A stretch of 64,000 nt of DNA from Longimicrobiales bacterium (GTDB lineage Bacteria; Gemmatimonadota; Gemmatimonadetes; Longimicrobiales; Gaopeijiaceae): NCBI GenBank assembly GCA_028278645.1, contig JANQDZ010000004.1, positions 1 to 64,000 of the forward strand, given 5' to 3'. The notes under the pieces were generated by a model. It made no database searches, was not told the origin of the DNA, and saw only the letters and a program-made list of their open reading frames with translations. The translations under genes were made by a program, and so were the position numbers. This document shows positions 38,090 to 64,000 of the stretch, in pieces (position 1 is the first letter of the stretch; each line of letters opens with the position of its first letter).

Positions 38090-41000
38090 ATGAAACGCGT
38101 CGTCCGTAGTCCCTCGTCTGGGATCCCTTCCCCACCCTTCCACCTTTTCGCTCCAGTCCTCATGGGTCTTCTAATGGCGGCTTCCGCCGGAGCCCAACAG
38201 ATCACGCCGGATCTCTATGACGGACTGCGCTGGCGGCACATCGGCCCTCCGGGCAACCGTACCTCCGCCGTGGTGGGCGTCCCGGGCAACCCGAATGTCT
38301 CCTTCATCGGAGCAGCTTCGGGCGGTGTCTGGAAGACCACCGACGGGGGTAACAACTGGTACCCGACCTTCGACGACATGGAAGCCCAGTCCGTCGGGGC
38401 CATGGCGATCGCTCCATCGGACCCGAACATCGTCTGGGTCGGAACCGGCGAGCCCTGGATACGCAGCAACATCTCCATCGGGAACGGCGTTTATAAATCC
38501 ACCGATGGGGGCGAGACATGGAACCACATGGGGTTGGATCTCACGGGGCGAATCGGACGTGTGGTCATCGATCCGCGGGATCCCGACGTCGTACACGTGG
38601 CCGCCATCGGGCATTCCTACGGGCCCCAACAAGAGCGCGGGATCTTCCGCACCACCGACGGGGGCGAGACCTGGGAGCAGACCCTCTTCATCGACGAAGA
38701 CACGGGGGTCTTCGAGATCGCCATGGACCCCAGCAATCCCCGGGTTCTTTTGGCTGGAGCCTGGCCGCTTGTGATTCGGACCTACGGACGGGAGAGCGGA
38801 GGACCCAACGGCGGGATCTACCGTTCCACAGATTCCGGCACCACCTGGGAAAAGCTCAGGGGTAACGGACTCCCGGACGATCCGGTGGGCAAGATCGGCA
38901 TCGCTTATTCCCAGAGTAACCCGGACGTCGTCTACGCCATGATCGAGACGGGCGCCCCGAACCGGGGCGTGTTGTGGCGATCCGAGAACGGAGGTGACAC
39001 CTGGAGATTGGTGAGCTACGACCGGCTCCTCAACGAGCGGTCCCACTATGCCGGCCGCATCGTGGTGAATACCGGTAACGAGAACGAGCTCTACTTCAAC
39101 GCCAACAGCCACAGCATCTCTCTCGACGGCGGCCTGACCACCGAGCGGTCGGGCTGGGGAGGCGACACCCACGACATGTGGGCCGACCCCCTCAATCCCG
39201 ACCGCATGATGATCAGCGACGACGGCGGAGCCAACATGACCTTCAACGGTGGGGAGACATGGCGCAGGATCGAGCTTCCCATCGCCCAGATGTATCATGT
39301 GAACGTTGACAACCAGATCCCCTACTACGTTTACGGCGGTATGCAGGACGGCCCCGGCTACAAGGGCCCCAGCACGTCCAGCAGCGGCCGCGGCAGCAGG
39401 GTCCCAACGGGTTGGGAATCCACCGCGGGCTGCGAGAGCGGGTTCATCGTCCCGGACCCGGTGATCCCGGAGATCGTTTGGGGCGGATGTTATACGGGCG
39501 GGTTCACCAAGGTGGACTATCGCACCGGCCACCGGCGAACAGTAAAGGTGTGGCCCGAATCCAGCTACGGCGCCGCGGCCAAGGACGTTCCGTACCGATT
39601 CAACTGGACCTTCCCCATCACCATCTCCCCCCACGACCACAACAAGGTCTACGTGGGGAGCCAGTATGTGCACCAAACCACAGACGGCGGGGAAAGCTGG
39701 CAGATCATCAGTCCTGATCTGAGTGGGAACGACACCACTCTCATGGGCCCATCGGGAGGGCTAACCAAAGACAACATCGGCGTGGAGATGGCCCAACTGG
39801 TGTTCGCCATCGCCGAATCCCCTCTTGAAGAAGGCGTGATCTGGGCCGGGACCAACGATGGGTTCGTTCACGTCACCCGGGACGGTGGTGGGAGCTGGAG
39901 CAACGTCACGGACAACATTCCAGACCTGCCGGTGTGGGGAACCGTCAGCAACATTCATGCGTCGAAACACGCCGCGGGAACCGCATACGTCAGCGTCGAC
40001 TTCCACCAGATGAACGGCCGCGATCCCTACGTCTACAAGACCACGGACTATGGCCAGACCTGGACTTCAATCGCCTCCGACATCCCGAGGAGTGTCTTCA
40101 GCTACGTGCATTGGGTGCACGAGGATCCGGTACGGCAGGGCCTCCTGTACCTGGGGACCGAGAACGCCATCTACATCTCCTTCAACGACGGAGGGAACTG
40201 GCACACGCTCCAGAACAATCTTCCCCATGCGCCGGTGCACGACGTGGTGGTCCAGGAGCACTACAACGACTTGGTCATCGCCACCTACGGCCGCGGCTTC
40301 TGGATCATGGACGACATCACCCCATTCCAGCAGCTCACGGATGAGGTTTTGGCGTCGGATGCCCACCTTTTCGCGCCGAGGCCCACATACCGGATGCACT
40401 CCATCGTGGGCGGACCGCCCACGCGCTCGTCGGCAAACATCAACTACTACCTGAAAGACGCCCCGTCCGGGGCGGTCAGCATCGAGATTCTCGACTCCGA
40501 CGGCGAGGTAGTAAACACCGTTCGAGGGTCCAGAAACAAAGGCATCAACAGGGCTTCCTGGAACCTGAGGTATCCAGGCCCCGACCAGGCCCGGATCCGG
40601 ACCAAGCCCCCGGGTAACCCCCGCGTGGTGGAGGAAAAGCGGTTCCGGACCCAGTGGGAGCGGGAAGGGTGGATCCCGGTTTTGAGTTGGGGCACTTCGG
40701 GGGGGTTCAGCGGCGTCACGGTGGCCCCCGGGACGTACACCGTGAGACTGACGGTGGACGGGCAGGAGTTCACTCAGGAGCTGGAAATCCTGAAAGACCC
40801 GCGGTCGGTAGGAACCTTGGCCGACATTCAGGAGATGGTGGCCATGCAGTTGGAGGTCCGGGACGACATCACCACCATCTCAGGAATGATCAACGAGATC
40901 GAGTGGATGAAGAAGCAACTCAACGACATCGAGGAATCGCTGGGGCGGGATAGGGATGCAGCGTCGGTGCGTGGCAGACTTGGGGGACTATACGCAAAAC

Positions 41001-41299
41001 TGCAGCACCTCGAAGACAAGATGCTCCAGCCCATCGCCGTGGAGGGCGATTCCAAGTCCTTCCGCTTCCCCAACATGCTTTACAGCAAGATGTCGGTGCT
41101 GGGCGGCGACTTGGCCCAGTCGGTAGACTTCGCCCCCAACCAACAGCAACGGGAGGTCCACCAGGTCCTGAAGGCCAGAATGCTCGAATACCAGGGCGAG
41201 TTGCGAGCCCTGGTGGCCGGAGATGTGGCCGAGTTCAACAACTTCCTGGCCGAACAGAATCTGGCGGGCGTCATCGGAGCCCCGGGGGGAGGGTTTTGA
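38090..41299 (+). CDS. Large secreted BNR/VPS10-type beta-propeller protein
   Basis: A 1069-residue secreted protein with a signal peptide ending near AGAQQ. Residues about 40-770 form many BNR/Asp-box repeats of the S-x-D-x-G-x-T-W kind: KTTDGGNNW, KSTDGGETW, RTTDGGETW, RSTDSGTTW, HQTTDGGESW and KTTDYGQTW. The sortilin/VPS10 and YVTN-like glycosidase propeller families look like this. The rest is a C-terminal beta-domain plus helices (about 950-1069). A role in binding or turnover of proteins or glycans outside the cell is likely, but the activity is unknown. An M24B peptidase follows by 2 bp. Confidence 0.85.
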   Translation: MKRVVRSPSSGIPSPPFHLFAPVLMGLLMAASAGAQQITPDLYDGLRWRHIGPPGNRTSAVVGVPGNPNVSFIGAASGGVWKTTDGGNNWYPTFDDMEAQSVGAMAIAPSDPNIVWVGTGEPWIRSNISIGNGVYKSTDGGETWNHMGLDLTGRIGRVVIDPRDPDVVHVAAIGHSYGPQQERGIFRTTDGGETWEQTLFIDEDTGVFEIAMDPSNPRVLLAGAWPLVIRTYGRESGGPNGGIYRSTDSGTTWEKLRGNGLPDDPVGKIGIAYSQSNPDVVYAMIETGAPNRGVLWRSENGGDTWRLVSYDRLLNERSHYAGRIVVNTGNENELYFNANSHSISLDGGLTTERSGWGGDTHDMWADPLNPDRMMISDDGGANMTFNGGETWRRIELPIAQMYHVNVDNQIPYYVYGGMQDGPGYKGPSTSSSGRGSRVPTGWESTAGCESGFIVPDPVIPEIVWGGCYTGGFTKVDYRTGHRRTVKVWPESSYGAAAKDVPYRFNWTFPITISPHDHNKVYVGSQYVHQTTDGGESWQIISPDLSGNDTTLMGPSGGLTKDNIGVEMAQLVFAIAESPLEEGVIWAGTNDGFVHVTRDGGGSWSNVTDNIPDLPVWGTVSNIHASKHAAGTAYVSVDFHQMNGRDPYVYKTTDYGQTWTSIASDIPRSVFSYVHWVHEDPVRQGLLYLGTENAIYISFNDGGNWHTLQNNLPHAPVHDVVVQEHYNDLVIATYGRGFWIMDDITPFQQLTDEVLASDAHLFAPRPTYRMHSIVGGPPTRSSANINYYLKDAPSGAVSIEILDSDGEVVNTVRGSRNKGINRASWNLRYPGPDQARIRTKPPGNPRVVEEKRFRTQWEREGWIPVLSWGTSGGFSGVTVAPGTYTVRLTVDGQEFTQELEILKDPRSVGTLADIQEMVAMQLEVRDDITTISGMINEIEWMKKQLNDIEESLGRDRDAASVRGRLGGLYAKLQHLEDKMLQPIAVEGDSKSFRFPNMLYSKMSVLGGDLAQSVDFAPNQQQREVHQVLKARMLEYQGELRALVAGDVAEFNNFLAEQNLAGVIGAPGGGF

Positions 41300-42758: not shown

Positions 42759-45458
42759 TCAGCGTCCCAGGTAGGTCGGGTTGTCCTTCTCGATGGTCAG
42801 GGTGGTGGTTTGAACCTCACCACCGACCGTGAGGCGGACCAGGTACTCACCCGGTTCCACCATGGCCGCCATCCTCCCCCCCCGGAACCTGGCCCCCGGT
42901 GACCCCTCCGGAGGCGGCGGAGGTGGGTCACCCCGGTGATTCCAGAACACCGTGTTGAGCCCGGCTTCAACGTCCACCTCCAGCGTCCGTTTCACGTCAC
43001 CCGCCAGGTCCAGGATCTCGATGGTTCCGCCTGGTGCTGGCGCGGCAGAATAGAAGGCGATTGTGGAGCCCGTGGGCGGATTGTCCTTGTAGAACCGTTT
43101 GTCCGTGGTCCAGGAGAACTCGTAGACCGTCACCCACTGGGTCTCGGGCCGCGGATCGAACAGCTCCAGCTCCTCCTCCATGGCATCCGACGTCAGCTGC
43201 TGGAGCGGCGTGATGTTGTCCGCAATCCAGACGCCCCTCCCATGGGTCCCGGCAATGAGGTCGAAGTCACGGGGATGGATCAGGAGGTCGTGTACCGGAA
43301 CGGTTGGGAGCCCGTTCATGAACCGGGCCCAGGTGGCCCCCCGGTCGATGGTGAAGTAGAGGCCCACCTCGCTCCCTGCGAAGAGGAGATCGGGATTCCT
43401 GGGGTCCTCTCGAACCACGTAGATGGACCCTTCCGGCAGGTTCCCGGTGATGTTGGCCCAGGTCTCCCCGTAGTCGTCGGTCGTGTAGATGTGGGGATCC
43501 AGATCCATGTGCCGGTGCCCGTCGAAGGCTACAAAAGCCCGGCCCGGCTCATGATGAGAGGCCTCCACATGTTTGATCCAGTATCCCTCCGGGGCGTTGG
43601 GGATGTTGCCGTTCAGAAGCTCCCAGTCGTGGTTCTCGCTCTGCCGGACCCACACATTCCCGTCGTTGGACCCCGCCCAGAGAAGACCCTGCACCAGGCT
43701 GGACTCGTCCACTGACACCAGTGCGCTGCTCCGGGCCTCGGGTTGGGCGGTGAGATCGGGGCTGATTGCCGTGTAGCTGTCTCCCCGGTTCACGGACTTG
43801 AACACCTTGTTCCCACCCACATAGACCGTCTGGGGATTGTGGGGGGAAAGGAAAAACGGGGTGTTCCAATCGAATCGGTACCTCTCCGCCTCCTCACCGG
43901 CCGCCGGCCGTGGCGGAGCAGGTCTGATGCGGGCCTGAACACCGGTCCTGAGGTCGCGACGGTAGAGGTTCCCACCCTGGGTGGTAGCATAAACGGTGTT
44001 GAAGTCGGTGGGATCGACCTGGGTGCCGAACCCGTCGGCGTTGGAGAGGGCGAACCAGTCGGCGTTCGTGACCCCACGAGTGATCCTTCCGCGGCTGGCT
44101 CCCACCCATACGCCGTTGTCCTGGAGGCCCACGGCCAGGTAGTAGGGCTTCCGCATGTCGGCTGAGAAGTCGTAGATCTGGGCCAGGCCGATCTGTTTCA
44201 CGACCTCCCACTGCTTCCCTCGATCCCAGGTGACGTTGATGCCACCGTCCCCGCCCACGATGACGTGGTCGGAGTTGTTGGGATCGATCCACCCGGCATG
44301 GTAATCGATGTGAGTATTTCCCTGGACCGCCTGCCCTGAAATAACGGTTTTCCCGCCGTCATCCGAATAGGCCATGGGGGAGGCAAAGCCCCAGATCACG
44401 TCGGCGTCGTTGGGATCGACTCGGATTTGGCTGTAGTAGGACGGCCGGTTATTCCAATCGTTCACCTTCTCCCAGGTGACGCCGTAGTCGGTGCTCTTGA
44501 AGATCCCGTCCCGGTTGGGATCGAGGGGCTCCCTCTCCTCCTCCTGAGCCGGGCGTCCGCCTTGTCCGCCCTCAGGCCTCGGCGGCGGCTGAGTGCTCAC
44601 CAGAGCGTACACGGTGCCCGGAGCGCTCCGGGCAACGTCGATCCCGGTCCGGCCCATCTCTACCGTGGGGAGGCCCTGTTCCGCCTTCGTCCACGTCGCA
44701 CCACCATCGTGGGTGATGTAGATCCCCGCATGGGGGCCCCACTGATCCACCGGGTCCCCTGCGTCGAACTTGTCCCTCTCCCGCATGTGTCCCACTGCGT
44801 AGAGGATGTTCGGATCCACCGGGTCCATGGCCAGGTCTGTCGCCCCGGTTTCCTCGTCCCAGTAGAGAACCTTCTCCCAAGTCTCCCCTCCGTCGGTGGT
44901 TTTGAAGACGCCCCGGTCTTCATTGAACCCCCAGAGATGACCCATGGCCGCAACGTAGACGATGTCCGGATCGGTGGGGTGAACCACGACCCGGGCGATG
45001 TGGCGGGTTTCTTTCAAACCTACGTAGGTCCAGGTCTCCCCACCGTCGGTGGACTTGAACATGCCGGCACCCCAGGGGGAACTGTTCCGGTTGTTGGGCT
45101 CTCCCGTTCCGACATACAGGATGTTCGGGTCCGACTTTGAGAGGCCTATGTCACCGATGGAACCGATGGGTTGGTCGTCGAAGATGGGCTCGTATGTGAT
45201 CCCGTCGTTGACGGTCTTCCACAATCCACCGGTGGCGGTCGCCACATAGTAGATGTGGGGGGCCGACTCCACCCCCTCCACATCCGTGATGCGTCCGCCG
45301 GGGTTCGCGGGTCCGACTTCCCGCCAGGTGAAATTCTCGGCCAAAGCGGTCAGGTCCTGCTGGGCCGAGGCTTGTGGTAGGAAGCCGAGAGTCAGGGAAA
45401 CCAGGAATGCCCCCAGGACTCCGGTCCGAATCGGGTCGAATGATCTCTGCGACATCAT
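42759..45458 (-). CDS. Second large secreted BNR/VPS10-type beta-propeller protein
   Basis: An 899-residue secreted relative of the 38090 gene. The signal sequence precedes AQQDLTALAENF. Repeated Asp-boxes are visible (FKSTDGGETW, FKTTDGGETW, YITHDGGATW, FKSTDYGVTW, FTIDRGATW), as well as a YVGTGEPN motif. The C-terminal region contains a KDNPPTGSTIAFYSAAP type beta-domain and ends in a short TLTIEKDNPTYLGR tail. It converges on the M24B gene. The start at 45458 (ATG ATG) is preferred over 45494 because the signal peptide then begins at the N-terminus. No enzymatic residues are identified. Confidence 0.85.
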   Translation of the reverse strand: MMSQRSFDPIRTGVLGAFLVSLTLGFLPQASAQQDLTALAENFTWREVGPANPGGRITDVEGVESAPHIYYVATATGGLWKTVNDGITYEPIFDDQPIGSIGDIGLSKSDPNILYVGTGEPNNRNSSPWGAGMFKSTDGGETWTYVGLKETRHIARVVVHPTDPDIVYVAAMGHLWGFNEDRGVFKTTDGGETWEKVLYWDEETGATDLAMDPVDPNILYAVGHMRERDKFDAGDPVDQWGPHAGIYITHDGGATWTKAEQGLPTVEMGRTGIDVARSAPGTVYALVSTQPPPRPEGGQGGRPAQEEEREPLDPNRDGIFKSTDYGVTWEKVNDWNNRPSYYSQIRVDPNDADVIWGFASPMAYSDDGGKTVISGQAVQGNTHIDYHAGWIDPNNSDHVIVGGDGGINVTWDRGKQWEVVKQIGLAQIYDFSADMRKPYYLAVGLQDNGVWVGASRGRITRGVTNADWFALSNADGFGTQVDPTDFNTVYATTQGGNLYRRDLRTGVQARIRPAPPRPAAGEEAERYRFDWNTPFFLSPHNPQTVYVGGNKVFKSVNRGDSYTAISPDLTAQPEARSSALVSVDESSLVQGLLWAGSNDGNVWVRQSENHDWELLNGNIPNAPEGYWIKHVEASHHEPGRAFVAFDGHRHMDLDPHIYTTDDYGETWANITGNLPEGSIYVVREDPRNPDLLFAGSEVGLYFTIDRGATWARFMNGLPTVPVHDLLIHPRDFDLIAGTHGRGVWIADNITPLQQLTSDAMEEELELFDPRPETQWVTVYEFSWTTDKRFYKDNPPTGSTIAFYSAAPAPGGTIEILDLAGDVKRTLEVDVEAGLNTVFWNHRGDPPPPPPEGSPGARFRGGRMAAMVEPGEYLVRLTVGGEVQTTTLTIEKDNPTYLGR

Positions 45459-45673
45459 ATTGGCTCGCTTGTTCTGGCGATTGGTTCGGTACACCGGAAT
45501 CGGGCAGGATACGGCCCGGAAGGGAGGACTTCAAGGAGGGAGGATCCCAAGCAACGGACTGAGGACGAATCCCTGCCCCGCCCTTGGCAACCCAAGCATC
45601 TGGCCGGTGTACGACGAGCGTAGATAAACAGCAATTCCCAACGCCCTCGGAGGGTCTCAACCGGGAAGCTTCC

Positions 45674-53482: not shown

Positions 53483-55423
53483 TTATGCCTCCCCTCCGGA
53501 TCCGACGGGGCCAGATCCCTCCTGCTGCCACCGGACCCCTCTCTCCAACTCCTCCAGGTACTTCGCCTGACGCTGCTCGTACTCTCCTGAAACTGCTCGG
53601 AGTTTGGGATCGATGAGCCAGTAAATGACCAGGGTCCCGGCAATGGCCAGAAGCGTGAGGACGATGCCCCCGGGCCTCAGCACCAGAATCGACGCCACAC
53701 CGATCATGAACGAGGCCATGACCAGGGGTGACAGTCCGATGACGATCCAGTCCTCCCTGGTCCACTCCTCGGCCTCAGCCGCCGACCAGCTCCTCTTGAT
53801 GAGGGGCCGGCGACCGGCCCGTTGGGTCATTCCATCGCCCGCGGCCGCTGTTCCTTCATCGATGAGCCCTCGCCGGACCGCCTCCCGGTGTACCGGACCC
53901 CACCAGCCCAGTGGCCGAGTCTGGAGGTAGTACCGGATCAGGTGATCCATATCCTCGGGTTTCGTGAGGAGGGTCGCAGGGAAGAATACCGCCGCGCCCA
54001 GGGCCATGAGGAGCCAGAACTGTAGGTAGTCAGGAAGCGGCGGGAATACCCCGAAGGCAGGCAGGATCCAAACCACCAGCCACGCCACCCCCAGGTTTGC
54101 GATCCAGGCCGAGAGGTAACCCCAGGCGTTGAAGCGCCACCATACAACCTGAAGGATGTTGGGAAGCCAGATCCCGGCCATCATCAACCAGAGCGCGAAG
54201 ATCAACCACTGGGTGATCTCCTGCATCATCATCCCGTAGAAGAACGACCCGATGAGGAGAACGGCGGTGGCCGCCCTCCCCACCCAGACCAGCTCCTTCT
54301 CCGAGGCTTGGGGTTTCAGGTACCGCTGGAACAGGTCCCGGGTGAAATACAGGGCGCCCAAGTTCAGGTGGCTCGAGATCGTGGAAAGGTGGATGGCCAG
54401 GATGGCTGCAAAGAAAACCCCGACCAAACCGGCTGGCAGCAGCTCGAATCCCAGCCGGAACCAACCGAGCTCGTAGTCCGCCGCATCGACGATGCCCGGA
54501 GCCAGAACAAAAAACGCCAGAATGGACGCCGCCCAGAAGCCGTTCCGTATGAGGGTGATGGCTCCTCCGGCCCAGATCCCATAGGCCGCATCCCGCACCG
54601 ACCCGGCCGACTGGATACGCTGAGCCTCCGGGTACCAGTCGATACTGGTCCCCATGCCGAAGCCCCCCACAACCGCAATGACAAGCATCGTCAACCACCA
54701 CGCGGCCGGGAAATCGCCCGAAAAGAGACCCGTAAAAGCAAATGCGTCCATCCTCCATCCTTCCCCCATCTCCACGAGGCGTCCCGCCAGGTCCCCGGGC
54801 CCACCCACAGCAGCGATCCCCACCAACGAAACGATGAGGATGGCAAAAATCGCGACGATGCCTTGGAGGAAGTCACCCATGACCACACCCCAATAGCCCG
54901 CCACGAGGGTGTAAGCCGCGGTGATCAAAGTTGGGAAAACCAAACCGACCCATACCGGCCAGCCGAACACGAGGGCACCCACCTTACCCATTGCCATGCC
55001 CACCCAGCCCAGAATGAACATGTTCATGAACACCTGCCAGCCTGCCAGCCACCCCCTGAGGAGCTCCGCCCCAAAGCCACCGAACCGCATCACCTGCCAC
55101 TCGGCCTGAGAGTAGGCCAGCGAACGGCGGAATATTCGGGCCGAAACGAAGGATCCGATGGCAGTCCAGGCAGTGAAGAACGTGTACCAGAGGCCCCTAT
55201 ACCCGTGGGCGTAGATCACACCTGTGACCCACATGGGGGTGTCGGTGGCCGTATGGGTACTGAACACGCTGGAAGCCGGCAGCCACCAGGGCAGTCGGCG
55301 TCCCGCCAGGAAGAAGTCGGACTCGGACCGCCGGGCGAGGCGGTAGAAGAAGAACGCACCCCCGACCATGAGGAGGAGGAAAGCGCCGGCCCAGAACCAG
55401 TCCAGGGCGGTGAAGTCGATCAA
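53483..55423 (-). CDS. Sodium:solute symporter (SSS family), long form
   Basis: A 646-residue transporter with about 13-15 helices. The N-terminal hallmark (LDWFWAGAFLLLMVGG, then SDFFLAGRRLPWWLPASSVFSTHTATDTP) is an SSS family feature, and Na+-site block ILAIHLSTISSHLNLGALYFTRDLF is near the expected helix 8. The C-terminal 100 residues hold two extra helices and a charged tail. The start is TTG 55423, with GAGGGACCA upstream. It heads a minus-strand operon with two tiny membrane proteins. The substrate is not resolved. The divergent 55450 gene starts only 26 bp away. Confidence 0.88.
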   Translation of the reverse strand: MIDFTALDWFWAGAFLLLMVGGAFFFYRLARRSESDFFLAGRRLPWWLPASSVFSTHTATDTPMWVTGVIYAHGYRGLWYTFFTAWTAIGSFVSARIFRRSLAYSQAEWQVMRFGGFGAELLRGWLAGWQVFMNMFILGWVGMAMGKVGALVFGWPVWVGLVFPTLITAAYTLVAGYWGVVMGDFLQGIVAIFAILIVSLVGIAAVGGPGDLAGRLVEMGEGWRMDAFAFTGLFSGDFPAAWWLTMLVIAVVGGFGMGTSIDWYPEAQRIQSAGSVRDAAYGIWAGGAITLIRNGFWAASILAFFVLAPGIVDAADYELGWFRLGFELLPAGLVGVFFAAILAIHLSTISSHLNLGALYFTRDLFQRYLKPQASEKELVWVGRAATAVLLIGSFFYGMMMQEITQWLIFALWLMMAGIWLPNILQVVWWRFNAWGYLSAWIANLGVAWLVVWILPAFGVFPPLPDYLQFWLLMALGAAVFFPATLLTKPEDMDHLIRYYLQTRPLGWWGPVHREAVRRGLIDEGTAAAGDGMTQRAGRRPLIKRSWSAAEAEEWTREDWIVIGLSPLVMASFMIGVASILVLRPGGIVLTLLAIAGTLVIYWLIDPKLRAVSGEYEQRQAKYLEELERGVRWQQEGSGPVGSGGEA

Positions 55424-55449
55424 TGGTCCCTCGAAACCGAGAAAGGACG

Positions 55450-56406
55450 ATGGGGGAGGGCATTCCTGCCCCCCATTCGGACGGAACGAAGCTATGGGAG
55501 GCTATTCGAACCCACAACGCGGAGGGACGGCCCGTCAATCTCCCGGGGGGTGGTCCTGAGGGGGTGAAACCCCGACCTTTATGGACTCATTTTTTCGGCC
55601 CCGGGCAACCCGGGACCCAGCTTGATAAGGGAGTCATCAACGTGGCTGATCATCTCGCCGCTTTAGGTATCGGAAGCTCGTCGCCACAGGAACGACAGGA
55701 TCAGGTCCGACAGATCCTCAAAGACTCGCAGCCCCATTCGCAGCGAGCCGACAGCATGACCCTCCGCTGGCACGATCCGTCGGGAGCAGAGTTGTGGATA
55801 TATGTGGACCAGACGGGAACCATGAAATCGGTCCAGCCCCATTATTCCGGGGGTCCGAGGATCAGGTTGGAGATTCAAGCCATCCTGGATAGGGCCGAGG
55901 TGAGTCCGTATGACGGCGGTTTCCTGGGTCTGACCCAGACGGGCGGCTCGAACCCTTCGTTGGGCGGAGGCTTCCCCATCGTTTTTGACGCGCCGGACTT
56001 CCCTGATGTGAAGGAGGTCATACTCACGGCGAAGCACGATGTCGAGCTAGCCGGATTCGCGGTGGAGCTCAACGTGTACCCCACCGAAGAAGCCTTTAGA
56101 GACGCTCAGCCCGACCTGAACCCTCTGGGTGTGCCCGCCTTTATCCCGGCCGGGATGATGGCACAGATGGAGGGAGGGCAACCGACGGCTCATGCACTGA
56201 TGGTGGGCCGTGTTTTGGATGCCAAGAGAGTGACAAACGAGCTCACCGAGCGTGAGTTCGTCCGGGTCCAGATGGAGACCCCGGCCGGGCCCATCGATCT
56301 GATCGTTGACCCGGGACTTCTGGAGGAACTTCCGGAGAACGGCCACATCATCCAAACCGGAGCCTGGCTCTCCGGGCGGATCGCACCTGAGAACGACGAG
56401 AAATAG
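55450..56406 (+). CDS. Protein of unknown function
   Basis: A 318-residue soluble protein with no signal peptide. The N-terminal 60 residues are polar and Gly/Pro-rich; residues about 70-310 are mixed alpha/beta (for example PIVFDAPDFPDVKEVILTAKHDVELAGFAVELNVYPTEEAF). The C-terminal RVLDAKRVTNELTEREFVRVQMETPAGPIDLIVDP forms an OB-like or beta-barrel segment that could be a nucleic-acid or ligand domain. No family is recognised. ATG 55450 follows AAAGGA. It stands just before the mannosidase operon, on the same strand, with 22 bp to the next gene. Confidence 0.6.
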   Translation: MGEGIPAPHSDGTKLWEAIRTHNAEGRPVNLPGGGPEGVKPRPLWTHFFGPGQPGTQLDKGVINVADHLAALGIGSSSPQERQDQVRQILKDSQPHSQRADSMTLRWHDPSGAELWIYVDQTGTMKSVQPHYSGGPRIRLEIQAILDRAEVSPYDGGFLGLTQTGGSNPSLGGGFPIVFDAPDFPDVKEVILTAKHDVELAGFAVELNVYPTEEAFRDAQPDLNPLGVPAFIPAGMMAQMEGGQPTAHALMVGRVLDAKRVTNELTEREFVRVQMETPAGPIDLIVDPGLLEELPENGHIIQTGAWLSGRIAPENDEK

Positions 56407-56428: not shown

Positions 56429-57940
56429 ATGACCGACATTCCCGGGAAAGACCACCGCGATCCCTCCAGGCGAGACTTCCTGAAGAAGGGAGGGGCCGCG
56501 GCCCTGGGGGCTTCCATTCTCGGAGGGGAGAGGAGCAAAGGACCTTCCACCCAAAACCCGTCACCTGGGCCACGGGCCATCCAAGTCGGTCCCGGCCGCT
56601 CGCAGGACTTTGACTCCCGACGGCCACCCGTGGGAGAGCGAAAGTTCCGCTCCCAGGGGGTCGAGGAAACCATCCGCCGGGTATCGCAAGACATCGCCGA
56701 CCCCGAATTGGCCTGGCTCTTCGGAAACTGCTTCCCGAACACGCTGGACACGACGGTGGACTTCGGGACATTGGATGGGAAGCCGGACACCTTCGTCATC
56801 ACCGGTGACATCGAAGCCATGTGGCTCCGGGACTCCACCGCCCAGGTATGGCCCTATCTCCCACTGACACCCCAGGACCTGGAGCTACGGCAACTCATCA
56901 GAGGAGTCATTCACCGTCAGACCCGGTGCATCCTCATCGATCCCTATGCCAACGCCTTCAACAAAGAGGCTGGGGAGAGCCCTTGGGCCGATGACCTCAC
57001 CCAGATGAAACCGGAGCTCCACGAGCGGAAGTGGGAGATCGACTCCCTCTGTTATCCCATCCGCCTGGCGTACGCCTACTGGAAGACTACCGGGGACGAG
57101 TTGCCCTTCGACAGTGAGTGGCGGGAGGCCATGGGGCTGATCCTCAGAACTTTCCGGGAGCAGCAACGGAAGGAGGACCAAGGACCCTATAAGTTCCAAA
57201 GGGTCACCGGGTGGCAGACCGACACCGTGGCGGGAGCGGGTTGGGGGAATCCCATTCGACCGGTGGGACTCATCGTGAGCATTTTCCGACCCTCCGACGA
57301 CGCCACCACCTTTCCTTTCCTGGTTCCGTCCAACCAGTTCGCGGTGGTTTCTCTTCTTCAGCTCGCGGAGATGGTCAGGGGAATCCTGGGTGGCGTAGCC
57401 TTCGCCCGGGAACTGGAAACGCTGGCGAACGAGGTAAGGGAGGCGCTGTTCGCCCACGCCGTGGTGACCCACCCGGCCTACGGAGAAGTGTGGGCGTACG
57501 AGGTGGACGGATTCGGGAATCGTCACTACATGGACGATGCGAACATCCCCAGTCTCCTATCCCTTCCCTACCTCGGAGCGTGTGCGGCGGATGATCCCCT
57601 GTACCAGAGGACTCGCGCCTTCGCCCTGGGGCCGGATAACCCTTACTACTTCCAGGGTGAAGCAGGCGACGGAATTGGCGGGCCCCACGTGGGCCTCGAG
57701 ATGATCTGGCCCCTGGGGATCACGATGCGGGCTCTCACCTCAAACGATGATGCCGAAATCGCTCGATGCCTTCAGATGTTGAAGGAAACCCACGGGGGCA
57801 CGGGCTTCATGCATGAGTCTTTCCATCAAGACGATCCGACACGGTTCACCCGAGAGTGGTTCGCATGGGCGAACACCCTCTTCGGGGAGCTGATTCTCAA
57901 GGTACATCAAGAACGGCCACAGCTTTTGACGGCTCGCTGA
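56429..57940 (+). CDS. GH125 exo-alpha-1,6-mannosidase with Tat signal
   Basis: A 503-residue glycoside hydrolase of family GH125, which removes alpha-1,6-linked mannose by an inverting mechanism. The Tat-type signal RRDFLKKGGAAALGAS lies near residues 14-29. Family blocks are GDIEAMWLRDSTAQVWPYLPL, FNKEAGESPW, EIDSLCYPIRLAYAYWK, HYMDDANIPSLLSLPYLG and a C-terminal GFMHESFHQDDPTRFTREWFAWAN. All are typical. The start at 56429 puts the Tat motif at the N-terminus. It is followed 29 bp later by the GH92-GH47 gene. Its substrate is probably the alpha-1,6 branch of a mannose-rich glycan. Confidence 0.93.
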   Translation: MTDIPGKDHRDPSRRDFLKKGGAAALGASILGGERSKGPSTQNPSPGPRAIQVGPGRSQDFDSRRPPVGERKFRSQGVEETIRRVSQDIADPELAWLFGNCFPNTLDTTVDFGTLDGKPDTFVITGDIEAMWLRDSTAQVWPYLPLTPQDLELRQLIRGVIHRQTRCILIDPYANAFNKEAGESPWADDLTQMKPELHERKWEIDSLCYPIRLAYAYWKTTGDELPFDSEWREAMGLILRTFREQQRKEDQGPYKFQRVTGWQTDTVAGAGWGNPIRPVGLIVSIFRPSDDATTFPFLVPSNQFAVVSLLQLAEMVRGILGGVAFARELETLANEVREALFAHAVVTHPAYGEVWAYEVDGFGNRHYMDDANIPSLLSLPYLGACAADDPLYQRTRAFALGPDNPYYFQGEAGDGIGGPHVGLEMIWPLGITMRALTSNDDAEIARCLQMLKETHGGTGFMHESFHQDDPTRFTREWFAWANTLFGELILKVHQERPQLLTAR

Positions 57941-57969
57941 AGGAAGAAGGCGGCCGCGAAGGAGCTTTT

Positions 57970-60900
57970 ATGACACGCCTGATCTTGTGGGCTGTTTCCG
58001 CCATGGTGCTGGCGGCGGCTTGTCAGCCTCCGGACGCTCAGCCGAGGGACCCCCTCACCCAGTATGTAGATCCCTTCATCGGAACCGGGGGGCATGGCCA
58101 CGTCTACCCAGGAGCTACCGTACCCTGGGGCATGGTTCAGCTCAGCCCTGACCAAGGTCAGGGCGGTTGGGATTGGATCGCCGGTTACAACTGGGTGGAC
58201 AGCCTGCTCGTGGGCTTCAGCCATACCCACCTGAGCGGAACCGGGATCGGGGACCTTCTGGATGTCCTGGTAATGCCGGTTCGGAGTTATTTCCCGGTGA
58301 ACGAGGAGTTCGAAGACCGTTGGGGCCGGTCGGCGAAATCCCGGTTCTCCCATGACCAGGAAGAGGCGTCTCCGGGGTACTACTCGGTGTTCCTGGAGGA
58401 TCAGGAAATCCAGGCAGAGCTCACCGCCACCACCCGCGTAGGGGTGCATCGGTACACCTACCCAACCACGGACCAACCGGCGGTCTTCGTGGACCTGGGC
58501 TACGCCATCAACTGGGACAGGCCGGTGGAGACGAGCGTCAAAGTCGTGAACGACACCCTCGTCACCGGCTACAGGTTCTCCAGCGGATGGGCGCGGGACC
58601 AGAAGCTGTTTTTCGCCATGGTTTTTTCTGATCCCATCCGATCCCTCGCCTTTGCCGATTCGACCATCCCCATGGACGTTTTGGACCGGAACGAGGTGGC
58701 CGCGGGGGACATGAGGGCCACGACCACCGGCCTCAGAGCCCTCTTCGCCTTTGATCCCACGGTCCAAGGCGACGAGCTCTTGATCAAGGTGGGGCTCTCT
58801 TATGTGGATGAGGCCGGGGCCTTGAAAAACGTGGAGGCGGAGGTGCCCGACTGGGACTTCCACCGAGTTCGGAATGAAGCCCGCATGGCCTGGGAGAGCG
58901 AGCTGGGCAAGGTCCGGATCGAAGGAGGTTCGGAGCAGGACCTTCGGACCTTTTATACGTCGCTATACCGGACCCGCCTGGCCCCCATCCTTTTCCAGGA
59001 CGTGGACGACCGGTACCGGGGAGCAGACGGCCAGATCCATACGGCCGAGGGTTATCGGAAGCATGCGATCTATTCCCTCTGGGACACCTTCCGGGCTGCC
59101 CACCCTTTGTTCACTCTGATCGATCCGGACCGGGTGGATGACCTGATCAACTCAATGCTGTCCTACTATGACGAACATGGCCTCCTCCCCGTCTGGTCCC
59201 TGGTGGGGAATGAGACCAATACCATGACCGGGCACCACGCGGTCCCGGTCATCGCCGACGCCTACCTAAAAGGGTACCGGGGGTTCGACGCGGAGAAGGC
59301 CCTTGAGGCCATGATCAAGAGCGCCGACGCCGATCATCGGGGCTTGGCTTCGTACAAGGAGTACGGATACCTGCCCACCGATCTGGAAAACGAGTCGGTC
59401 ACAAAAACCCTGGAATACGCTTTTGACGATTGGGCCATCGCGGCCATGGCCGGCGCCTTGATGGGAGAAATGGAACCAGGATCGTCCGAACACGGGAGAC
59501 TCGAAGCCGAAGAGACTCGCTTCCTTCACCGGGCAGCCAGGTGGGAGAAGCTCCTGGACCCCGACACCCGCTTCATGAGGGGCAAGACGGCGGCGGGCGA
59601 TTGGGCTGAACCGTTCGATCCCCGGCGTTCGGACCACCGGGAAGGGCCCGACTATACGGAAGGAAACGCCTGGCAACACACCTGGTTCGTACCCCACGAC
59701 GCGAGGGGATTGATCGACGGGATGGGCGGGGAGGAGGCATTCCTCGCCAAGCTCGATTCCCTTTTTGAGATGGACTCGGAGATCACGGGTGAGAATGTGC
59801 CCGCCGATATTTCCGGACTGATCGGACAGTACGCTCACGGAAACGAGCCCAGCCACCACATCGCTTACCTCTACAACCACACCGGGCGACCTTGGCAGAC
59901 CGCGGACCGAGTGAGGGAAATCCTCACCACCCAGTACGACGACACACCATTCGGTTTGAGCGGAAACGAGGACTGCGGCCAGATGACGGCGTGGTATGTG
60001 TTGTCGGCCTTGGGGATCTACCCTGCGAACCCGGCGGACGCGAACTGGGTCTTGGGGTCACCTCTTTTTCCTGAAGTCACTGTCGATCTCGGTGACGGAA
60101 GGTCGTTCACGATCTCGGCTCCCGGGGTTTCTGATGAAGCCAGGTACATACAGGCCGCGAGCCTCAACGGGGTGCCCCTGAACCGGACTTACCTGCGGCA
60201 TGACGAGATCGCCGGTGGTGGAGTCCTGGAACTCGAGATGGGCACTGAACCTTCTGTTTGGGGAACCGCCAGAGATGCGCGGCCGCCGAGTCAGTCCGAC
60301 GCGTCCACCGAACCAGGGCCCGACCAGATCCTCGCCGACCTTCCCCCCGACTCGGTGATGGCGCGGGCCGTAAAAGACGAGTTCCTTCACGCGTGGAACG
60401 GGTACCTGGAGCACGCCCGGGGAATGGACGCTCTCCGACCTCTCTCCCAAAGCGGAAGGAACTGGTACGATGCGTCCCTGGTCATGACCCCCCTGGACGC
60501 CTATGACACCATGCTTCTCATGGGCATGGAAGAGGAGGCAGCGGAAGCGAAGGCGTTGATCCTGGACGGTCTGTCGTTTGATCACGACTTCTACGTGCAG
60601 GTGTTCGAGGTGACCATCCGGATTCTGGGGGGATTGCTGACGGCTTACCAGATGAACGGAGATCCCCGATTCCTGGAGCTGGCCACCGACCTCTCCGACA
60701 GGCTACTGCCGGCCTTCGAATCGGCCACGGGGATGCCGTACGTTCGGGTGAACCTCCGGACGGGTGAGAGGGAGGGGCAGGTCAACAACCCTGCGGAGAT
60801 CGGGACCTTGATGCTGGAGTTCGGGGCCCTCAGCCGGTTCACCGGAAACCCGGTCTACTACGAAAAGGCGAGAGCCGCCGTGGAAGCCCTCTTCGCTCGC

Positions 60901-61623
60901 CGCTCGGGCATTGGGCTGGTCGGGACCACTATCGACGTAGAGACGGGCGAGTGGCAGAACACCTCCTCCCACATCTCGGGGATGATCGATTCGTACTACG
61001 AGTATCTGCTGAAGGCCTGGATCCTCTTTGATGATGACGATTTCAAGGAAATGTGGGAAGCCAGCGTGGGGCCGGTAAACCGGTACCTGGCGGATGAAGT
61101 CGAGGGGGCTCTCTGGTACGGCCACGCCGACATGGTTACCGGGGAGCGAACTGCCACGAGGTTCGGGGCGTTGGACGCTTTCTGGCCCGGCGTCTTGGCC
61201 TTGGCCGGAGACATGGATCGCGCCTCACGCCTCATGGAGTCGGTCCACTCCATGTGGACCACCTTCGACGTCGAGCCGGAGCAGATGGACTACACCGCCA
61301 TGGAGGTCGTCCACGGCGGGTACCCGTTACGGCCGGAAGCCATAGAGTCGGCCTACATCCTTTATACTCTGACGGGAGACGATCGGTATAGAGCCATGGG
61401 GTGGGACATCTTCCAACGAATCGTCGAATGGTGCCGAAACGACGTGGGGTATGCTCACCTGGAGGACGTCCGGACCAAGGAACAGTCCGACGCCATGGAA
61501 AGCTTCTTCTTGGCCGAGACGCTGAAGTACGCATACCTGCTCTTCGCCCCCGACGGCACTCTGGATTTCCATAGCGTGATCTTCAACACCGAAGCCCACC
61601 CGCTGAGGAGGATCTGGGAATGA
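57970..61623 (+). CDS. GH92-GH47 fusion lipoprotein, two alpha-mannosidase domains
   Basis: A 1217-residue lipoprotein (lipobox VLAAAC). Residues about 25-755 are GH92: DPFIGTGGHGHVYPGATVP, GFSHTHLSGTG, GNETNTMTGHHAVP and GNEDCGQMTAWYVLSALG. GH92 enzymes are Ca2+-dependent exo-alpha-mannosidases, often alpha-1,2. An Ala/Ser/Pro linker covers about 760-795. Residues about 797-1217 are GH47, with E880 in VFEVTIRILGGLLTAY, D1007 in IDSYYEYLLKAW, E1123 in RPEAIESAY, then ESFFLAETLKYAY and the Ca2+-ligand Thr1207 in FNTEAHPL. These are the catalytic and metal residues of ER-mannosidase I/EDEM-type enzymes. AAGGAG precedes the ATG at 57970. Overlap ATGA with the next gene. Confidence 0.92.
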   Translation: MTRLILWAVSAMVLAAACQPPDAQPRDPLTQYVDPFIGTGGHGHVYPGATVPWGMVQLSPDQGQGGWDWIAGYNWVDSLLVGFSHTHLSGTGIGDLLDVLVMPVRSYFPVNEEFEDRWGRSAKSRFSHDQEEASPGYYSVFLEDQEIQAELTATTRVGVHRYTYPTTDQPAVFVDLGYAINWDRPVETSVKVVNDTLVTGYRFSSGWARDQKLFFAMVFSDPIRSLAFADSTIPMDVLDRNEVAAGDMRATTTGLRALFAFDPTVQGDELLIKVGLSYVDEAGALKNVEAEVPDWDFHRVRNEARMAWESELGKVRIEGGSEQDLRTFYTSLYRTRLAPILFQDVDDRYRGADGQIHTAEGYRKHAIYSLWDTFRAAHPLFTLIDPDRVDDLINSMLSYYDEHGLLPVWSLVGNETNTMTGHHAVPVIADAYLKGYRGFDAEKALEAMIKSADADHRGLASYKEYGYLPTDLENESVTKTLEYAFDDWAIAAMAGALMGEMEPGSSEHGRLEAEETRFLHRAARWEKLLDPDTRFMRGKTAAGDWAEPFDPRRSDHREGPDYTEGNAWQHTWFVPHDARGLIDGMGGEEAFLAKLDSLFEMDSEITGENVPADISGLIGQYAHGNEPSHHIAYLYNHTGRPWQTADRVREILTTQYDDTPFGLSGNEDCGQMTAWYVLSALGIYPANPADANWVLGSPLFPEVTVDLGDGRSFTISAPGVSDEARYIQAASLNGVPLNRTYLRHDEIAGGGVLELEMGTEPSVWGTARDARPPSQSDASTEPGPDQILADLPPDSVMARAVKDEFLHAWNGYLEHARGMDALRPLSQSGRNWYDASLVMTPLDAYDTMLLMGMEEEAAEAKALILDGLSFDHDFYVQVFEVTIRILGGLLTAYQMNGDPRFLELATDLSDRLLPAFESATGMPYVRVNLRTGEREGQVNNPAEIGTLMLEFGALSRFTGNPVYYEKARAAVEALFARRSGIGLVGTTIDVETGEWQNTSSHISGMIDSYYEYLLKAWILFDDDDFKEMWEASVGPVNRYLADEVEGALWYGHADMVTGERTATRFGALDAFWPGVLALAGDMDRASRLMESVHSMWTTFDVEPEQMDYTAMEVVHGGYPLRPEAIESAYILYTLTGDDRYRAMGWDIFQRIVEWCRNDVGYAHLEDVRTKEQSDAMESFFLAETLKYAYLLFAPDGTLDFHSVIFNTEAHPLRRIWE

Positions 61624-64000
61624 GACGGATCGAAGGGACCCGACTGTCTCCGAGGCCAGGGGTGCTGGGGGCCTTGGTCCTCACGGTGATGTCCGTTGCC
61701 TGCCAGGGCCCGGCCCCATCGAACCAAACGCTGGAGCTGACCGAGGGTTGGGAATTCCGCCGGGCTGACCTCCCCCCAGGACCGAGCTTCCCAGGGGATC
61801 TCGCCGATCCCCTTTCAGCCTGGATCCCAGCCACCATCCCGGGAACGATCCACACCGACCTCCTGAATGCCGAGTTGATTTCCGATCCGTTCTTTCGGAG
61901 TAACGAGATGGCACTCCAATGGATCGGCGAGGAGGGCTGGATATACCGAACGTCCTTCCAGGCTTCCCCGGGCCTCCTCGAGAAGGAAACTGTGGAGTTG
62001 GTCTTCCACGGTTTGGACACGTTCGCGGAGGTCCGCCTAAATGACCGCCCGATTCTCCGAGCCGACAACATGTTTCGGATTTGGTCGGTGGAGGTGAAAG
62101 ATCTTCTCCGGTCCGGCGAGAACACCCTCGAGATCCACCTTTCCTCACCCCTTCCTCCAGCCCTGGACGCAAGGGCGGCCCTCCCCTACGAGCTACCGGC
62201 CGGCAACGACCGGGGAGACCCCCCGTCCCGTGTTTTCGTGCGGAAGGCCGCCTACCACTACGGATGGGATTGGGGCCCCAGACTGGTGACCAGCGGAATC
62301 TGGCGGCCGGTGGAAATCACGGGCTGGAGCGGAGGGAGGATCACCGACCTTTACCTCACAACCGACTCCATCTCCGGCGAGACCGCTTTCCTCACCGGAA
62401 GCGTGGAAATCCTCATCTCCCGCGAGGAGGCGGATCGGCGGACCGCTGGTGGGAACGTACCAATCAACGTGACCCTTTCCAGTCCGGATGGAGCATTCGC
62501 GGCGGTGGAGCAGGAGCTGGTGGTGGAGTCGGGCACCAACCAGATCGCTTTCGGCCTCATGGTCGAGGATCCCCAGCTCTGGTGGCCGAATGGATCCGGT
62601 GATCCTCACCTCTACACCGCACAGGCTTCCATAAAAGCCGGCCGCAACACGGACACCCTCACGACCCGTTTCGGGGTGAGGACCGTGGAGCTTGTCACGG
62701 AGCCCGATACCATCGGAGAGAGCTTCTTCTTCCGCGTAAACGGGATCCCGGTCTTCATGAAGGGCGCCAACGTAATCCCCCTGGACCACTTCTCCCCCCG
62801 GGTCACCGAGGACGACTACAAATCCCTGTTTCAGGACGCGGTCGAAGCCAACATGAACATGCTTCGAGTGTGGGGCGGCGGAATCTATGAAGAAGACACC
62901 TTCTACGACATTGCCGACGAGTACGGGGTCCTCATCTGGCAGGACTTCATGTTCGCCAACGGAATGTACCCTGGGGATTCTGCTTTCTTGGCGAACGTCG
63001 AGGCGGAAGCCACCGATCAGGTCAGGCGCCTGAGGGGGCACGCCAGCATCGCCCTATGGTGCGGAAACAATGAGATGGACGAGGGCTGGCACAGGTGGGG
63101 CTGGGCCCGGAACTACGATACGCCCCAGGATTCGGCCGCGGTGCGGGACGCGTACGAGAACATCTTCCACCGGATCCTTCCGGGGGTGGTGGAGGCGGAA
63201 GACCCTGGACGCAGGTATTGGCCCTCGTCCCCGAGCCTGGGGTGGGGGGACCCCGAAAGCTTAAATCGGGGCGACAGCCATTACTGGGGGGTTTGGCACG
63301 GACAGGAACCGTTCCAGGTCTACGCCGAGAAGCTCCCGCGGTTCTCCAGCGAGTTCGGCTTCCAAGCCTTTCCGTCCATGGAGACGGTAGCAGCCTTCAC
63401 CTATCCGGAGGACAGGTCCCTCTTCGACCCGACGCTCCTCACCCACCAGAAACACCCCATCGGAAACGAACTGATCCTGGAGTACATGGAGCGGGATTAT
63501 CCGGTCCCGGAGGGGTTCGACGACTTCGTCTATGTGAGCCAGCTCCTGCAAGCCCGAGGAATGCGAACGGCCTTCGAGGCCCACCGCAGGGCCATGCCTC
63601 GAACCATGGGAACCTTGTACTGGCAGTTGAACGACACTTGGCCCGTGGTGTCATGGTCTGGCCGAGACTATTTCGGTCGGTGGAAAGCCCTTCACTATGC
63701 AGCAAAACACGCCTTCGCTCCGACCCTCGTCTCCTCCGTCCTCGGTGAAGCCTCCGTCGAGGTGTGGGGCGTTCATGAGGCTGCAGGGCCCTTGAACGGC
63801 AGTTTGCGCCTACGACTCCTAGAGTTCAGCGGCGCCGTCCTGTGGGAAGACTCCGTCGAGGTGAGTCTTGGGGAGAGGGAAAGCAGCGTCCTCTGGCGGA
63901 GCCCTGTAACCTGGCCGAGCCCCCTCACCGAATCGGAAGAGTTGGATACCCGGAGGGCCGTCTTCGTCGCTGAGCTGACGAGGGACCCCTCGGCGGAGGG
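61620..64000 (+). CDS. GH2 beta-mannosidase, exported lipoprotein, 3'-truncated
   Basis: The N-terminal 793 codons of a GH2-family beta-mannosidase; the gene continues past the window. The start ATG overlaps the GH92-GH47 stop by ATGA. A signal peptide with lipobox SVAC (Cys28) is present. The sugar-binding domain is at about 40-220 (YHYGWDWGPRLVTSGIWRPV, the beta-mannosidase signature). The catalytic core has acid/base Glu485 in CGNNEMDEGW and nucleophile Glu578 in FSSEFGFQAFP. YWQLNDTWPVVSW closes the active site. It would release beta-linked mannose, e.g. from the core Man-beta-1,4-GlcNAc or mannan. It completes the operon. Confidence 0.93.
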   Translation, partial: MRRIEGTRLSPRPGVLGALVLTVMSVACQGPAPSNQTLELTEGWEFRRADLPPGPSFPGDLADPLSAWIPATIPGTIHTDLLNAELISDPFFRSNEMALQWIGEEGWIYRTSFQASPGLLEKETVELVFHGLDTFAEVRLNDRPILRADNMFRIWSVEVKDLLRSGENTLEIHLSSPLPPALDARAALPYELPAGNDRGDPPSRVFVRKAAYHYGWDWGPRLVTSGIWRPVEITGWSGGRITDLYLTTDSISGETAFLTGSVEILISREEADRRTAGGNVPINVTLSSPDGAFAAVEQELVVESGTNQIAFGLMVEDPQLWWPNGSGDPHLYTAQASIKAGRNTDTLTTRFGVRTVELVTEPDTIGESFFFRVNGIPVFMKGANVIPLDHFSPRVTEDDYKSLFQDAVEANMNMLRVWGGGIYEEDTFYDIADEYGVLIWQDFMFANGMYPGDSAFLANVEAEATDQVRRLRGHASIALWCGNNEMDEGWHRWGWARNYDTPQDSAAVRDAYENIFHRILPGVVEAEDPGRRYWPSSPSLGWGDPESLNRGDSHYWGVWHGQEPFQVYAEKLPRFSSEFGFQAFPSMETVAAFTYPEDRSLFDPTLLTHQKHPIGNELILEYMERDYPVPEGFDDFVYVSQLLQARGMRTAFEAHRRAMPRTMGTLYWQLNDTWPVVSWSGRDYFGRWKALHYAAKHAFAPTLVSSVLGEASVEVWGVHEAAGPLNGSLRLRLLEFSGAVLWEDSVEVSLGERESSVLWRSPVTWPSPLTESEELDTRRAVFVAELTRDPSAE

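Follow-up and report, generated by a model that had tools for sequence, protein, structure and literature searches.

A GH92-GH47 fusion gene within a predicted N-glycan degradation operon of a Longimicrobiales bacterium

The locus and its genes

The window analysed here, a stretch of 64,000 nucleotides from a Longimicrobiales genome, carries towards its end a row of glycosidase genes, one of which encodes a GH92 and a GH47 enzyme within the same open frame (Table 1). This frame starts with ATG and runs for 1217 codons without an internal stop, and its two catalytic domains are matched by Pfam with E-values of 3.5e-176 (GH92) and 2.1e-121 (GH47, 406 bits), the GH92 half scoring in addition 696 bits against TIGR01180 and the protein terminating in FNTEAHPLRRIWE. 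The complete GH92 followed by GH47 that the preliminary description had read in a single frame was thus borne out by full-length domains. The product is probably an exported lipoprotein, facing the periplasm or placed at the surface, as judged from a lipobox assigned by eye at the end of the signal peptide.

The gene just upstream of the fusion matches GH125 structures at 5.8e-186 and its product begins with a twin-arginine-like leader (Tat-like motif SRRDFLKKGG), while the gene directly downstream, a GH2 member that overlaps the fusion gene, matches the beta-mannosidase 2vjx at 1e-224 and would end at 64316, as read in L043 (4621-7317). The order SSF symporter, orf327, GH125, fusion, GH2 is kept in a genome of the same genus (G846) and in one of another genus (G188). 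In L038, from another genome of the Gemmatimonadota, this symporter recurs at 72% identity next to a GH47 that stands alone. The flanking GH125 and GH2 genes and the conserved operon had been missed by the preliminary description, as had the separate Bacteroidota fusion and the unfused adjacent pairs reported below. As a side observation, orf327, located between the SSF and GH125 genes, has no Pfam or NCBIfam match and is 65-83% conserved in G846 and G188.

Table 1. The fusion gene, its parts and its neighbours, with positions counted from the first letter of the window
Feature	Position	Strand	Basis or remark
SSF sodium:solute symporter, divergent	53483..55423	-	Pfam; conserved beside the cluster
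orf327, 327 aa, upstream of GH125	55423..56406	+	kept in G846 and G188
GH125 exo-alpha-1,6-mannosidase (by family), probable start 56429 (open frame from 56306)	56429..57940	+	Pfam, structures
Shine-Dalgarno AGGAG of the fusion gene	57960..57964	+	sequence
GH92-GH47 fusion gene, 1217 aa	57970..61623	+	open frame, Pfam
Predicted signal peptide with lipobox LAAAC, Cys18	57970..58023	+	sequence, by eye
GH92N beta-sandwich (PF17678)	58063..58800	+	Pfam, residues 32-277, profile 1-236/236
GH92 catalytic domain (PF07971)	58816..60243	+	Pfam, residues 283-758, profile 1-463/464
Linker, residues about 768-804	60271..60381	+	between GH92 and GH47
GH47 catalytic domain (PF01532)	60382..61611	+	Pfam, residues 805-1214, profile 2-455/455
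GH2 beta-mannosidase (by family), ATGA overlap with the fusion gene	61620..64000	+	continues beyond the window

Integrity of the fusion gene

Both halves retain their catalytic residues. Alignment to BT3990 and BT3130 places the GH92 acid at E564 (TEGNAWQ; 59659-59661) and the base at D668 (GNEDCGQ; 59971-59973), and in the aligned GH47 half the acid E880, D1007, R1121, the base E1123 and the Ca2+ ligand T1207 are all present, which rules out the loss of GH47 catalytic residues contemplated in the preliminary description. Across 55 bacterial rows the Glu, Asp and Thr positions of GH47 do not vary except for gaps, and CkGH47 and the human and mouse enzymes have them too. The GC content is similar between the halves (61.2 and 60.9%). 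In a comparison with L002 and L003, dN/dS against the nearest relative was about 0.06 for GH92, about 0.05 for GH47 and about 0.47 for the 33-codon linker, values that are rough given that dS is near saturation. Such ratios indicate strong purifying selection on the two halves and far weaker constraint on the linker, whose length and sequence differ among relatives.

The GH92-GH47 fusion is a real single gene. An assembly chimera, or a hidden frameshift joining two genes, might come to mind for a genome assembled in 103 contigs, but its probability is negligible: the same fused frame is found in independent assemblies from two phyla, which excludes an assembly error as its origin, purifying selection acts on both halves, and the frameshift or join envisaged at about 60240-60350 does not exist.

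The AlphaFold model of the fusion (1199 aa, 12 rows) had a mean pLDDT of 57, with most of the GH47 half above 70. Its GH92 half is unreliable because the alignment had just three GH92 sequences, and the relative placement of the two active sites is therefore unreadable from it. A model too poor for inter-domain geometry leaves the earlier suggestion of processive trimming unsupported.

Distribution of the fusion

The source genome, 95.6% complete, encodes a single GH47 and a single GH92, namely those of the fusion protein. A search for the same domain pair elsewhere identified fusions in four Gemmatimonadota genomes, this one included (G000, G846, G188 and G847), and in five Bacteroidota. In the Gemmatimonadota family to which the source genome belongs, 5 of 121 genomes have a GH47, which is fused in four and stand-alone in the fifth (G322); the latter has a 973-aa open frame that was considered as a candidate fusion, and its upstream part was found to have no GH92 match. 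In G847, GH92 and 68 aa of GH47 lie on one contig and the remaining GH47 with GH2 on another, the fusion gene being split by contig ends (L124, 2051-4654 on contig C322; L125, 1-3686 on contig C16). Across the phylum, GH47 was detected in 14 of 395 genomes and is unfused outside the four carriers.

The Bacteroidota fusions are represented by frames of 1172-1193 aa (G440, G766, G906 and G907) and by a fifth one cut off by a contig end (G908), all from a single family that also holds the Ignavibacteriae genome behind L011. Full-length GH47 was found in about 32 of 395 Bacteroidota genomes, and in 4 of the 40 Calditrichota species sampled, none of whose genomes showed the fusion. The preliminary description had granted GH47 few bacterial members, a view that needs tempering, since the family is not very rare in the three phyla sampled here. 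Among plasmids searched by tblastn, no record covers 80% of the query, and the best of the matches listed are to GH92 alone.

One fusion or two

The fused rows form two clades in the GH47 tree, one within the Gemmatimonadota GH47s and the other within the Bacteroidota GH47s, where the surrounding members mostly adjoin GH125. A single fused clade was rejected on this tree (p-AU 0.0001; 0.0007 with more rows) and also on the GH92 tree (p-AU 0.0028; 0.0017 with more rows). Since both trees split the fused genes into two clades, the fusion probably arose twice, by the joining of neighbouring GH92 and GH47 genes. Such neighbours are seen in Bacteroidota, where GH92 and GH47 are adjacent with open frames that touch or overlap (L108, L110, L114, L115, L116 and L131), an arrangement that likely represents the state preceding fusion.

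All GH92s with a GH47 partner, whether fused to it or in the adjacent gene, constitute one clade (100/98), which means that the GH92-GH47 partnership is old and the fusion later. The age of the partnership could also speak for a single ancient fusion that was split or lost several times afterwards, a scenario which we consider unlikely in view of the non-monophyly of the fused rows in both trees and of the AU values above; on the GH47 tree it would moreover cost, by our own count, about five subsequent losses as against two gains, and is thus less economical than two fusions.

Predicted linkage specificity of the two halves

GH47 enzymes fold as an (alpha/alpha)7 barrel. The catalytic domain of GH92 is an (alpha/alpha)6 barrel (PMC5930347), so that the unrelated folds attributed to the two mannosidases in the preliminary description were too strong a statement. 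The bacterial GH92 enzymes specific for alpha-1,2 linkages are marked by a His-Glu pair, by Pro-Trp and by the sequence DED, and the alpha-1,3 enzymes carry NDD or NED (PMC12858847; PMC5930347). The GH92 half has NED at residues 666-668 instead of DED and lacks the other alpha-1,2 determinants of BT3990, that is, the His-Glu pair in the 580-loop and Pro-Trp, the three sites reading ADISGLIGQYAHGNEPSHH (loop), THLSGTG and NED. The other fused GH92s have NED as well, and neither His-Glu nor Pro-Trp. In the GH92 tree this half is separated from BT3990 and BT2199 with 100/100 support, the nearest characterised enzyme being left unresolved. From its motifs the GH92 half would be of the alpha-1,3 type, in a family where specificity can be mixed.

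The GH47 half falls within a clade of Bacteroidota, Gemmatimonadota and Calditrichota sequences, apart from CkGH47. This clade is about as near to human ERManI (38%) as to the Caulobacter GH47 (36%), whose branch is very long. At the alignment position that we take to be Arg461 of human ERManI, the GH47 half has Met and the mouse Golgi enzyme Leu; Met being nearer to the Golgi residue, this weakly hints at a broad branch choice. GH47 enzymes hydrolyse alpha-1,2 links (PMC10685318), and cleavage of this type is predicted for the GH47 half.

The two halves thus likely prefer different linkages, as had been proposed, the GH92 half not being of the alpha-1,2 type and the GH47 half being alpha-1,2 by family. 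It is improbable that both act on alpha-1,2 links, the fusion then serving dosage or avidity and not the pairing of specificities: many alpha-1,2-mannosidases do belong to GH92, and GH92 and GH47 are both Ca2+-dependent and inverting, but none of the three alpha-1,2 determinants is present in this GH92 half, which stands apart from BT3990 and BT2199. Also consistent with the preliminary description is the presence of two exo-alpha-mannosidase families of the Ca2+-type, inverting kind on one exported, probably lipid-anchored polypeptide.

A putative pathway for high-mannose N-glycans

Taken with its neighbours, the fusion quite probably encodes an exported, two-function exo-alpha-mannosidase that is central to an operon for the degradation of high-mannose (oligomannose) N-glycans, a reading in which substrate, linkages cut, order of action, localisation and role of the transporter are deduced from families, motifs and gene context. 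The GH47 half would take off the alpha-1,2-mannose caps and expose alpha-1,3-mannose, which would then be removed by the GH92 half. The neighbouring GH125, of a family that cleaves alpha-1,6 links (PMC10154615), would clear alpha-1,6-mannose; the last mannose, beta-1,4-linked to GlcNAc, would be released by the GH2 beta-mannosidase, and the freed sugar could be taken up through the nearby sodium symporter (SSF). By family assignment, every mannosidic linkage has its enzyme at the locus (GH47, GH92, GH125 and GH2), so that the cassette would cover all mannosidic bonds of Man9GlcNAc2, whose nine mannoses comprise four alpha-1,2, two alpha-1,3, two alpha-1,6 and one beta-1,4. High-mannose glycans on glycoproteins of eukaryotes could be cleared of all mannose by such a cluster. 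In the fusion, the two alpha-mannosidase activities would be held at 1:1 and co-located. It is a speculative idea, with a small chance of being right, that a hand-off on the same glycan, from alpha-1,2 uncapping by GH47 to alpha-1,3 removal by GH92, gave the advantage that drove fusion twice in separate phyla.

The gene context in relatives points in the same direction and agrees with the high-mannose substrate suggested at the outset. The fused Bacteroidota genes occur in the order GH20-GH125-GH92.GH47 (G440 and G907; L154 and L156), and GH125-GH47 pairs of that phylum lie near an alpha-fucosidase and a beta-galactosidase (L112) or near GH97 (L109). These neighbours, together with the glycosylasparaginase described next, would fit glycoprotein N-glycans. 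Two Bacteroidota loci display the unfused row GH92-GH47-glycosylasparaginase-SSF (L108, 5293-11526; L110, 5577-11654), which is a compact unfused N-glycan pathway; the hydrolase of L110 is much closer to glycosylasparaginase (about 1e-122) than to isoaspartyl peptidases (about 1e-31). In the source genome, GH20 is located on another contig only. A search for glycan-releasing endoglycosidases did not find GH85, and the one for PNGase F was uninformative, its controls being silent.

A cluster for fungal cell-wall alpha-mannan, with GH47 and GH92 acting on side chains and GH125 on the alpha-1,6 backbone, is a rather doubtful alternative. GH92, GH125 and GH47 families also serve alpha-mannan breakdown (PMC12858847), and environmental bacteria encounter fungal necromass. 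However, the endo-alpha-1,6-mannanase GH76 gave no match above cut-off in eight genomes (the source genome and related ones) in a search whose controls gave signal, the product of the overlapping beta-mannosidase gene would be useless on an all-alpha mannan, and glycosylasparaginase, GH20 and alpha-fucosidase adjoin these genes in relatives.

Comparison with known systems

The solved structures closest to the GH92 half are BT3130 of Bacteroides thetaiotaomicron (6f8z; 4.7e-186) and the GH92 7zgm (4.3e-182), which share with it the Asn-x-Asp base motif and the absence of His-Glu and Pro-Trp. Unlike the fusion, both are single-enzyme proteins without GH47. For the GH47 half they are CkGH47 (Caulobacter K31, 4ayo) and human ER alpha-mannosidase I (1fmi), with 36% and 38% identity, respectively, and all catalytic residues in common, although these enzymes stand alone. 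The multidomain GH92 of Neobacillus novalis (7nsn) also has extra domains, which include CBM32s and a helical bundle and no second catalytic domain, and is alpha-1,2-specific (PMC10167667).

The high-mannose locus of B. thetaiotaomicron (GH18 BT3987 and three GH92s) likewise encodes a set of exo-mannosidases, which remove, one after another, alpha-1,2-, alpha-1,3- and alpha-1,6-linked mannose (PMC10154615). It employs separate GH92s, in contrast to the GH125 and GH92-GH47 fusion of the present locus, and possesses an endoglycosidase (BT3987) where GH85 was not found here.

The fusion is therefore a new architecture of known enzyme families and not a new kind of system. No published description of the GH92-GH47 pair was found in the open-access literature, in line with the preliminary description, which knew of none, and GH47 goes unmentioned in a review from 2023 on how bacteria break down N-glycans (PMC10154615). 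Little physiological context has so far been available for bacterial GH47 enzymes; the fusion and its unfused neighbours would link part of one clade of bacterial GH47s with the catabolism of N-glycans in Gemmatimonadota and Bacteroidota, and the fused and adjacent pairs suggest which GH92s are the partners of GH47. In addition, the fusion offers a ready-made enzyme with two predicted activities for oligomannose trimming, and a pair that was apparently fused more than once allows the benefit of coupling to be put to the test.

Other genes in the window

Two Sortilin/Vps10-like BNR-repeat proteins (38090-41299 and 42759-45494) are encoded on either side of an M24 peptidase of the aminopeptidase P-type. 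An M16 peptidase nearby and two of the M28 family, encoded at other places in the window, suggest peptide scavenging.
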